Below, piece by piece: positions 6,496-15,990 of a stretch of DNA of 64,000 bases. Source of the stretch: Caldilineaceae bacterium SB0661_bin_34 (GTDB lineage Bacteria; Chloroflexota; Anaerolineae; Caldilineales; Caldilineaceae). Below the pieces are notes generated by a model. That model ran no database searches. It was not told where the DNA came from and saw only the letters and a list, made by a program, of their open reading frames with translations. Where the stretch lies: positions 13,552 to 77,551 of the forward strand of contig VXMJ01000081.1 of the NCBI GenBank assembly GCA_009841145.1. Reading direction: 5' to 3'. A program made the position numbers and the translations under genes. Position 1 is the first letter of the stretch; each line of letters starts with the position of its first letter.

Positions 6496-6998
6496 GTCGT
6501 GCAACAACCACCATCCGCGGAACGACAACCCACCGAACACAGTGTAACAAGCATGCCAATGCACCGATGCGCCTGATCGCCCAGGGCAATTGCATCTAAA
6601 CGGGTTTGGGCTTGAGGCCCATCAGGCGGCACAGGTAGTCCTGTTCCAGGCCGCCGCCAGCCGCTTGTTGGCGATGCCCACCTTGAGAGACCGGTCCTAC
6701 CGCAGCATTTCGGAACCTGCGCAGTGGAATGCCACTGTGCCCATCTGGATGCTTCTTTCGAACTCTCGGAGTGCACATGCTTTTAGCCTCGTAGGTGCAA
6801 TGGGTCATGACCAGGCCGATGTTCTTGGCACTGTTCTGCAGCATGCGAAACAGGTTGACCTTGGATATTGCCGCGGTGTTGGTATGGCACAAAGCCCGTG
6901 CAGTCGATGCTGGATGGTCCACGGATCTCCCAGGGTGCTGCCCTGTCCCGTCCCGCACCTTTACGACCCGAATTTGACAACGTCCGGTATTCCTCCGG
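6496..6998. other. Gene-free stretch
   Basis: About 500 bases between the start of the Uma2 gene and the end of the toxin-antitoxin pair. On the minus strand there are short stretches with coding-like composition, but the readable segments sit in different frames and are separated by stops. I could not match them to a family. No RNA gene or repeat was seen. Confidence 0.45.
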
Positions 6999-7433
6999 TC
7001 AGGAACGCTCATCTGCCGTTGCAGGCACTCTCCCCGCGACACCCACGGGACCACGCTTTCCCGGAACTACATCGACCGGTGTAGGAATAAGCCACTCGGC
7101 TCCGGCTTTGGTCGCACCCCGCACCCGACCATCACGGGCCAGTTGACGCACCCTGCGCTCCGAGATGCCCAGGCGCATGGCCGCCTCTCGTACCGTAATG
7201 TTGTCAACATCATCGGCAGGCGCCTCGGAATCCAACTCGAACTCAATGGGGCTGGGCTCTTTCAGCGTGCTCATCTCGTGGATCAGAAATCCGATGACCT
7301 CTCCGTCGTCGTCCAGCCGCTTGAGGATGCGTTCGTCGTCGGTGGGCGTGAAATAACCTTCCCTGGCCGCCCACAACACTTCAAGCATGTCTCCTTCGTG
7401 GTCGTACGAGACAAACACCTTCTTGCCGTTCAC
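6999..7433 (-). CDS. Putative antitoxin: DUF2283 domain fused to helix-turn-helix
   Basis: A 144-residue protein. Residues 1-50 match the DUF2283 pattern (KKVFVSYDHEGDMLEVLW, then DDDGEVIGFLI). After an acidic linker, residues about 85-125 form an excisionase/MerR-like helix-turn-helix (TVREAAMRLGISERRVRQLA). The start is the GTG at 7433, with AAGGAG eight bases upstream; it overlaps the stop of the upstream gene as GTGA. DUF2283 proteins often accompany small toxin-like genes, so this is probably the antitoxin and autorepressor of the pair. That role is inferred from fold and context. Confidence 0.75.
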   Translation of the reverse strand: MNGKKVFVSYDHEGDMLEVLWAAREGYFTPTDDERILKRLDDDGEVIGFLIHEMSTLKEPSPIEFELDSEAPADDVDNITVREAAMRLGISERRVRQLARDGRVRGATKAGAEWLIPTPVDVVPGKRGPVGVAGRVPATADERS

Positions 7434-7729
7434 TCTCGCTCTCCTTGGATTCTTCGGGTGAGATAGGCGGTGAGGATGAAGGAGTAGCCGTGCGCTCTCT
7501 TCAACACAATGCACACATAGCGGTTCCTGCCCCGTAGATCCGGATAGAGCCGATAGTAGAGCTGGACCATCGGGCTGGATTTGGAGGGACTCACCGCATC
7601 CGGGCTGGCGAGGGTTTCGGCAAACCGATGCAGCTGGAAGGCCATTTCAGGGTGCCCTCTCAGGATGTGCCGAAGCCGTTCGTCGGTGAGTCGGACTTCA
7701 TTTCCGCGCTTATCGTTGAAACGCCGCAC
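7430..7729 (-). CDS. Small toxin-like protein (PBECR/RelE-type nuclease fold)
   Basis: A 99-residue protein beginning at a GTG. The pattern RLTDERLRHILRGHPEM, an acidic and helical middle, YRLYPDLRGRNRYVCIVLK and the closing FILTAYLTRRI is characteristic of small proteins assigned to the phage-Barnase-EndoU-ColicinE5/D-RelE nuclease superfamily. The His in ILRGHPE and the C-terminal basic and aromatic residues would be candidate active-site positions. It is the first gene of a two-gene unit with the DUF2283-HTH protein (four-base overlap). RNase activity is a family-level prediction only. Confidence 0.65.
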   Translation of the reverse strand: MRRFNDKRGNEVRLTDERLRHILRGHPEMAFQLHRFAETLASPDAVSPSKSSPMVQLYYRLYPDLRGRNRYVCIVLKRAHGYSFILTAYLTRRIQGERE

Positions 7730-7752
7730 ACTGTCCGCTTCCCCCTATTACC

Positions 7753-7781
7753 ATACCGGAAAGTATACCGCATTCGGTATA
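7753..7781. promoter_or_regulatory. Inverted-repeat operator upstream of the toxin-antitoxin pair
   Basis: A perfect inverted repeat, TATACCG-CATT-CGGTATA (7764-7781), is preceded by another ATACCG at 7754-7759, in an AT-rich pocket 25-50 bases upstream of the toxin start. A minus-strand -10-like TATACT lies inside it (7762-7767). Palindromes overlapping the promoter are the usual binding sites of antitoxin autorepressors. The assignment to the HTH antitoxin is inferred. Confidence 0.45.
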
Positions 7782-7988
7782 TAACACGGCAAGAAATCAC
7801 GCATGCACGAAACAGAAGGAACAGTGCCGATACAGGTGTAGGTTGCCTGCGGGGATGCCAAAGCCGCTCTCTGCCTACCTATGGAGAGCCCAAATGCCGT
7901 ACTCCACCAGTGTCCCCATATGCATGGAATTGCAACGGACTGCGAAGCCGGGACACGGGCAAGGTCTCACCCTAACTTCACTTGTCTG

Positions 7989-8963
7989 TCAGGGAAGAAA
8001 TTGAATCTTTATCGCCTGCCTTGAGCGCAACAGGTCAATCCCTTCCAGGTAGTCGGCCAACGGCAATCGGTGGGTTGCCAACGGCTTCAGGTCCAGTCGG
8101 CCATCTGCCACCAGCGACAAGGCTGTTTCCGCGGCTTCCCTGGTATGGCGGTCGTAACCGATTAGGGCCAGTCCCTTGCGGTATTCGGACAGGCCGAACT
8201 GGACGGGATCCCGCAGGACCCCGAACACATGAACGAACCGCGAACACAGCGCCATCAGATGCTGTAAGGCCGGTGCGAGGCCCGTACAGTCGATGCCGGT
8301 GGTCCAAAGGTCGCTCTGGTCGAGCATGGCAAGAACCTTCGGATCATCCGGAGCAAACACCTTGGCCACACCCAGACGCGCAGCCAATTCGCGGCGGGCC
8401 GGCAACGGGTCGAGCGCCATCACATCGGAAGCACCGTGCACTCGCGCTAATTGGATGGCGATCAGGCCGGCCGGTCCCAGGCCACAGACAATCACGCGGC
8501 AATCCCGTACCGCACCGAATCCGTTCATCTGGTCGAACGAAGCCTGGACGCACATCGCCAGTTCCAGAGAGGCGCACTCCCGCGGTTCCAGTTTGTCCGG
8601 CAGCCCAATCAGGTTGGTTGCTTCGAACGGCACGTACTGGGCATAGCACCCTTGGCGGACCTTGCCCGGATCGCGCCACGCGGCGACCTTCATGCCGGTT
8701 TTGAACCCTTCGACACCGGGACCGATGGCCGCGACCACGCCAGCCATCTCATGACCCGGCTGACCTATCGGATACGGGTATTCGATGGTGCTTCCGGGGA
8801 ACATCGGTTCGTTGCCCAGGATGTGCAGGTCCCACTGCGGACAGGTGTTGACCGCTTCCACTCTGACCAGGACTTCCCCCGCGATCGGGGTGGGCATCGG
8901 TGTTTCGATAAGGGCCGCCTCGCCAGGTCCTTTGATTTGGATGGCCTGCATCGTGTCGGTCAT
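7989..8963 (-). CDS. Zinc-dependent-type medium-chain alcohol dehydrogenase
   Basis: A 324-residue medium-chain dehydrogenase/reductase. The GroES-like N-terminal domain contains NTCPQWDLHI, and GQPGHEMAGVV matches the GHE zinc/active-site signature. The cofactor domain has VIVCGLGPAGLIAIQLAR. The Cys and His-Glu of the catalytic zinc site are present, but the four-cysteine structural zinc lobe is missing. AAGGAAG sits close upstream of the ATG. It is the promoter-distal member of a minus-strand set with an enolase-superfamily dehydratase and a second dehydrogenase, so it probably oxidises a sugar-derived alcohol. Confidence 0.88.
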   Translation of the reverse strand: MTDTMQAIQIKGPGEAALIETPMPTPIAGEVLVRVEAVNTCPQWDLHILGNEPMFPGSTIEYPYPIGQPGHEMAGVVAAIGPGVEGFKTGMKVAAWRDPGKVRQGCYAQYVPFEATNLIGLPDKLEPRECASLELAMCVQASFDQMNGFGAVRDCRVIVCGLGPAGLIAIQLARVHGASDVMALDPLPARRELAARLGVAKVFAPDDPKVLAMLDQSDLWTTGIDCTGLAPALQHLMALCSRFVHVFGVLRDPVQFGLSEYRKGLALIGYDRHTREAAETALSLVADGRLDLKPLATHRLPLADYLEGIDLLRSRQAIKIQFLP

Positions 8964-15555: not shown

Positions 15556-15990
15556 TGGGTGAGCTCATGGCTCCCGGTGTCAACGAGACACCATGGCCGA
15601 CCTGCCAGTTGGTTGCCTTCCCGAGTAACCGTCAGGCTTGATGGACTTGAGCCATGGTTGGACAGCTACCGGTTCCCGAATGCGGTGTCAGAACTTTCCC
15701 AGCTCGCGGGGTTGGGTCTGGAGATCCCTTGCAACTTCGGCAATGCCCTCGGCATTGGTGGCAGCAGCCACGAGGGAAGGTTGGCAGGAATGGAACCGGC
15801 CAGGCCCCGATCCGCGTCCCGTGGTGATCGGGCATCTCTGCAAGGAACTCCGGCCTGACCATGGAACGAGGCTGGCTCATGCAGCGTCACAGTGCATGTG
15901 GTGTGGAGTTCCGGGAAGGTGTCACATGCCGGTGAGCCGGTTTCTTCGACGAGGGCAGTGCCACCTGTACACGGTCCCTTCAGTACATGT
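15556..15990. other. Gene-free stretch between two toxin-antitoxin-like loci
   Basis: About 435 bases with only short frames on either strand. None shows a family signature, and no RNA gene or strong hairpin is apparent. A minus-strand segment around 15700-15790 reads like a soluble alpha-helical fragment ending at a stop, but it cannot be assigned. The region probably contains remnants of earlier insertions. Confidence 0.4.

Follow-up and report, generated by a model that had tools for sequence, protein, structure and literature searches.

Two small overlapping genes of a Caldilineaceae bacterium, the second of which appears to join a DUF2283 domain to a helix-turn-helix (HTH), raise the question of which function such a pair might serve and how it would be controlled. 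Here, the window analysed is the whole stretch of 64,000 nucleotides (G000:C38:13552-77551), which belongs to a genome of 4.34 Mb distributed over 102 contigs. We consider it likely that the pair forms a type II toxin-antitoxin cassette of mobile nature, where a predicted RNase of the PBECR2 family (phage-Barnase-EndoU-ColicinE5/D-RelE-like nuclease 2, PF18810) would be silenced by a DUF2283 neutraliser with a fused autorepressor, the functional steps being read from sequence and structural models. The type II kind of module is familiar, and the pairing of PBECR2 with DUF2283 as well as the fusion to the HTH look little described so far.

The toxin gene comes first at the locus, and the GTG start of the antitoxin gene overlaps its stop as GTGA (Table 1). 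The sequence-only reading had given 6999-7781 for the unit and had noted the overlap, and both observations were recovered. In a mechanical list of open reading frames the second gene begins further upstream and encodes 171 amino acids; the alignment with relatives, however, begins at the GTG of position 7433, and the start was set at this codon. An orthologous pair is present in a genus mate (G001).

Table 1. Features of the putative cassette, in positions of the window
Feature	Position	Strand	Remarks
Putative toxin gene, 99 aa, PBECR2-family predicted RNase of BECR fold	7430-7729	-	GTG start
Putative antitoxin gene, 144 aa	6999-7433	-	GTG start; DUF2283 domain and winged-HTH-like domain
Inverted repeat TATACCG-AATG-CGGTATA (TATACCG-N4-CGGTATA)	7764-7781		arms ATACCG/CGGTAT
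Further ATACCG	7753		near the inverted repeat
Direct repeat CGGTA-N7-CGGTA (CGGTATACTTTCCGGTA)	7754-7770	-	

A zinc-type alcohol dehydrogenase gene (7989-8963) has its 3' end just before the cassette, and a putative restriction endonuclease gene of the Uma2 family (PF05685; 5428-6564, minus strand) lies downstream of the pair. In the genus mate, the end of the alcohol dehydrogenase gene is duplicated across the cassette over ~284-327 bases with 83-86% identity (L034 6354-6680 / 7742-8057), and near 6894-6931 of the window a trace of ~28-37 bases of this duplicated end is found. The presence of the alcohol dehydrogenase end on both sides of the cassette possibly reflects a large duplication linked to insertion.

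The 99-residue protein matches the Pfam family PBECR2 with 28.9 bits, above the cut-off of 27.1, and a match at E <= 0.05 is seen in just nine of 27 relatives. Throughout these relatives T15, I22, H26 and T87 are nearly invariant, and H21 of the window toxin does not occur in all of them. For PBECR domains, an active site with a His within a helix and a C-terminal Thr/Ser is given in the available excerpt of the defining study (PMC5512222), with which the near-invariance of H26 and T87 agrees. An AlphaFold2 model built from the alignment of the relatives reached a pLDDT of 93.3 and a pTM of 0.85, and agrees with the BECR/RelE fold of toxins such as RelE and BrnT, in which a helix precedes a sheet of four or five strands. 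The best solved VIA matches of this model are BrnT (Z 7.9), the toxin 7vd7 of a Salmonella toxin-antitoxin system (Z 7.4) and RelE (Z 6.2), where a Z below 8 taken alone can mean a common arrangement and is not decisive. The further rows contain mainly RelE, YoeB, YafQ, HigB and ParE toxins and also include two CDI toxins; toxins of the RelE superfamily make up most of the 50 rows. In a Foldseek search of the model against the PDB no match was obtained at E <= 0.001, the best being at E 0.06 with RelE on top, and the toxin sequence found no PDB match up to E 10. The RelE/Barnase-type fold proposed from the sequence is supported by the predicted structure. We infer that the protein would be a metal-independent RNase, which blocks translation by cutting mRNA or other RNA. 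Its dN/dS is 0.44 between the window and the genus mate, a value based on few changes, and ranges from 0.09 to 0.18 in eight more distant comparisons (computable in eight of nine).

A search of 100 related genomes revealed the toxin in 24 of them, at 32 places. At 30 of these a DUF2283-like gene follows on the same strand within 600 bases downstream, while it is found upstream at none of the 32, so that an adjacency by chance was rejected. This is the small, adjacent, co-oriented and conserved gene pair by which type II toxin-antitoxin systems are recognised, and the pairing postulated from the window therefore holds among the relatives. At the two exceptions, the toxin is broken near a contig end, which lies 439 bases beyond it (G003), or the match just misses the threshold with an E of 0.0013 (G009).

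Homologues of the toxin are also carried by plasmids, for which a search gave four toxin matches and no match to the 144-residue antitoxin. On the Leptospira noguchii plasmid NZ_CP092114.1, a toxin homologue of 31.6% identity is accompanied by a DUF2283 partner, and in both L. noguchii plasmid regions read the toxin precedes an annotated DUF2283 gene, close to ParB and VapC genes. Likewise, the toxin precedes a DUF2283 protein on a plasmid of the cyanobacterium Chondrocystis. A three-gene arrangement was observed on one L. noguchii plasmid (L107 2190-3014), where the PBECR2-like gene overlaps at its start with a UPF0175 gene and also overlaps with the DUF2283 gene.

Decay at the locus frequently affects the toxin and leaves the partner in place. 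In G182 and G166, two genomes from a second class within the phylum, the first two thirds of the toxin are missing beside a truncated PIN_3 toxin start, and the fusion antitoxin is whole. Upstream of the antitoxin (L052 and L053), the truncated PIN_3 start follows a small gene and directly adjoins the remaining tail of the PBECR2 toxin, both toxins being cut at one junction with the DUF2283-HTH antitoxin kept. Stop codons interrupt three of the 32 toxin frames (G069, G092:C49 and G018), each still followed by a DUF2283 gene, and a truncated or undetected toxin was noted at several of 13 further DUF2283 loci. Among the 32 places, none clearly shows an intact toxin that lacks a partner. Between the window and the genus mate, where the toxin is intact, the antitoxin differs by three nonsynonymous and 16 synonymous codon changes, in comparison to 11 nonsynonymous and six synonymous ones between the two genomes with the broken toxin (Fisher p 0.005); this contrast comprises 19 and 17 changed codons from one genome pair each. 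Judged from these codons, the antitoxin appears to be under strong selection next to an intact toxin and under weaker selection next to a broken one.

The 144-residue protein itself is composed of two parts. DUF2283 (PF10049) matches residues 8-51 with an E of 0.011 and 16.3 bits, below the cut-off of 23, and HTH_17 matches residues 80-117 with an E of 2.5e-5 and 24.9 bits, likewise below its cut-off of 27. The excisionase-type model TIGR01764 scores 26.6, below its cut-off of 28.8. Nevertheless, a profile of the DUF2283 partners, from which all rows of the window genome and its genus mate were omitted, finds the DUF2283 part of the window at E 2e-11. At E <= 0.05, PF10049 is recognised in every one of the 21 partner rows, most of which had been chosen beforehand by a DUF2283-like motif, and HTH_17 in three rows of the alignment A1, the best of them with 4.4e-7. 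The model of the protein is poor (pLDDT 55.6) and better in the DUF2283 part, and residues 78-117 follow a strand-helix-helix-strand-strand pattern. Six weak PDB matches, the best at E 0.4, were obtained with its sequence and set aside. The HTH that had been noticed behind DUF2283 was recovered as a winged-HTH-like domain at residues 78-117.

This fusion is rare. Seven copies were found, in Caldilineaceae, in another class of Chloroflexota and in one metagenome-assembled genome (MAG) of Acidobacteriota. Relative to the window protein, the identity amounts to 98% in the genus mate, 81% in a paralogue on contig C5 of the same genome, 77-78% in three genomes of the other class (G182, G166 and G402) and about 70% on the Bryobacterales (Acidobacteriota) contig. 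Full-length matches were obtained in four of 400 genomes of the phylum, the one of the window included, and in one of 200 genomes from the class to which the Acidobacteriota MAG belongs, namely in this MAG; all remaining matches of both searches cover the DUF2283 part alone or the HTH alone. As a rule, DUF2283 comes without an HTH, and the fused form is the exception. Between non-orthologous copies, the DNA similarity starts at the operator and stops near the end of the antitoxin, which is what a moving cassette would show. The copies stem mostly from fragmented, MAG-like genomes, and the Acidobacteriota copy, located on a contig of 10.9 kb, might be misbinned, since MAGs account for the named Chloroflexi and Bryobacterales records, two of which share the prefix 'jk18'. 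The genus mate also carries the remnant of a further copy, a decayed piece of the HTH half interrupted by stops (G001:C360:12685-12804; L032/L035).

Upstream of the toxin gene, the pattern ATACCG-N4/5-CGGTATACTTTYCGGTA is kept in the leaders of all four genus copies, with a spacer of 4 or 5 bases and of varying sequence. The 16-base core of the palindrome has one exact match in the window, and among the core matches listed the two others are the opposite strand of this site, with 1 mismatch, and a site at 15673 with 3 mismatches; the shuffle mean is 0.37. In 61 genomes ATACCG-N3-6-CGGTATACTT occurs at four places, each ~32-52 bases before a copy of the window toxin gene, and its reversed control is absent from the same genomes. 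The direct repeat CGGTA-N7-CGGTA occurs once in the window, in one or two of 20,000 shuffles of each leader and also at one unrelated position (L044). A palindrome by chance was rejected on the basis of the shuffle mean, of the restriction of the pattern to the window-type toxin and of the rarity of the repeat in shuffled leaders. Outside of the genus the picture changes: in the Acidobacteriota leader the left arm of the palindrome is gone and CGGTA is present three times at a spacing of 12 bases, and in the leader of G402 the left arm and exact CGGTA repeats are both missing, with degenerate forms left in their place. The palindromic operator of the sequence-only reading is consequently only partly right, as the inverted repeat is present and its arms are kept within the genus, but the element kept across the phyla is CGGTA-N7-CGGTA. 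For a winged HTH of excisionase type, direct repeats are no less fitting than a palindrome. A TATACT inside the direct repeat could serve as a -10 box.

Assuming a type II cassette, the DUF2283 half would bind the toxin and thereby silence it, and the C-terminal winged HTH would bind the CGGTA repeats over the promoter and repress the operon. Loss of the antitoxin would then free the toxin and switch the operon on at the same time. Ordinary DUF2283 partners come without a DNA-binding domain, and the antitoxin of the window would have gained one by fusion.

An alternative accepts the 99-residue toxin and DUF2283 as its immunity partner, but assigns to the HTH a role other than autoregulation, such as targeting or the control of other genes, with the repeats being bound by a host factor. 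This would fit the excisionase-like HTH match, which belongs to a family also active in recombination, the low confidence of the antitoxin model and a promoter and terminator scan of the locus, which gave no sigma-70 promoter and no terminator. However, the operator pattern is confined to positions before the window-type toxin gene in the 61 genomes, and the CGGTA direct repeat is found in five of six leaders of the HTH-fusion unit, that of Acidobacteriota included, and is absent from the leaders of two ordinary DUF2283 pairs (G254 and G092), which makes this reading unlikely.

Similarly improbable is a domesticated effector of a phage or conjugative element, of PBECR type and with its protector, whose role would be one of defence or counter-defence and not one of addiction or stress response. 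According to the accessible part of PMC5512222, proteins of phages and mobile elements are those from which PBECR domains were defined, and the three viral structures matching the toxin model at E <= 0.001 are phage proteins, including a minor capsid protein and a MuF C-terminal protein. Against this, the viral contigs contain no sequence relative of the toxin or of the fusion antitoxin, the toxin has no match in 50,697 phage records, no PADLOC model was matched, and the Leptospira plasmid copies adjoin partition and VapC genes. In the same phage records, the antitoxin gave one match, to the HTH only.

That there is no toxin at all, the pair being a housekeeping RNase or RNA-binding protein with its cognate regulator, would account for the purifying selection on both genes, but is very improbable in view of the patchy presence (24 of 100 relatives, and three of 24 genomes in the order of G402), the spread between phyla and the frequent decay of the toxin with its partner kept.

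With the toxin-antitoxin cassette as the preferred reading, the occurrence of DUF2283 elsewhere becomes relevant. DUF2283 exceeds the Pfam cut-off in 27 of 41 related genomes and in three of 14 control genomes. Thirty of these loci were viewed, and at 19 an upstream protein was picked by eye as a possible toxin. Among these 19 proteins, seven match DUF4258 (PF14076), none matches PBECR2 at E <= 0.05, and four resemble the window toxin family by motif (L100, L101, L103 and L105), of which L100 is a place already counted among the 32. Furthermore, several of the 19 belong to a family of small proteins ending in (V)HNAFFDR/PDR, which were observed upstream of DUF2283 genes (L077-L080, L086, L092 and L093); one of them (L077), run singly, matched no Pfam model, and they are possibly a further toxin family. 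Since the upstream proteins include DUF4258, window-like and VHNAFFDR families, DUF2283 seems to partner several types of toxins, which is to be taken as a lead and not as a census.

Taken together, a wider reading can be formulated, for which the arguments are evenly balanced in our view. DUF2283 would be the neutraliser in a large and little-described type II set, silencing several BECR families (PBECR2-like, DUF4258 and the third, 'VHNAFFDR' one), usually without binding DNA. In the lineage of the window it would have taken up an excisionase-like winged HTH that reads CGGTA repeats spaced by 12 bp, resulting in an autoregulated cassette moved between Chloroflexota classes and Acidobacteriota. 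This would assign a testable role, as antitoxin of BECR-type RNases, to a widespread domain of unknown function and would illustrate a way in which autoregulation may be acquired through fusion, starting from a neutralising domain that does not bind DNA. Since homologous toxins accompany both the ordinary and the fused form, tests can address neutralisation and repression separately.

In comparison to known systems, the toxin of the window shares with PBECR2 the profile match, the His/Thr pair and the BECR-type model. PBECR2 domains elsewhere are located in phage and polyvalent proteins and also occur as solo domains, according to the portion of PMC5512222 at hand, whereas the window contains a stand-alone gene of 99 codons with a dedicated DUF2283 partner. 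In the literature searched, with subscription papers and toxin-antitoxin databases outside its scope, DUF2283 and COG5428 were not mentioned and PBECR2 appeared in a single paper; PF10049 is applied to a calcineurin-like protein in the available excerpt of one paper. With the toxin-antitoxin systems of the RelE/ParE superfamily (relBE, higBA and brnTA), the pair has in common the BECR fold, small overlapping genes, a putative DNA-binding antitoxin and operator-like repeats, and its order of toxin before antitoxin is the one listed for BrnT in the accessible sections of a RelE/ParE survey of 2025 (PMC11980606). PBECR has no occurrence in this survey, and the DUFs named within these sections are DUF4258, DUF262 and DUF1524, not DUF2283. 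DUF4258 toxins with DUF2283 partners are alike in that five of 27 PBECR2-like toxins also match DUF4258 weakly, and unlike in that the window toxin matches PBECR2 and not DUF4258. Furthermore, their DUF2283 partners show no HTH in the frames printed, unlike the antitoxin of the window. In the trio of Leptospira noguchii, finally, UPF0175, a PBECR2-like protein and DUF2283 are encoded together; of the two plasmid regions read, one has UPF0175 ahead of the toxin, whereas the window has an HTH joined to DUF2283 instead.
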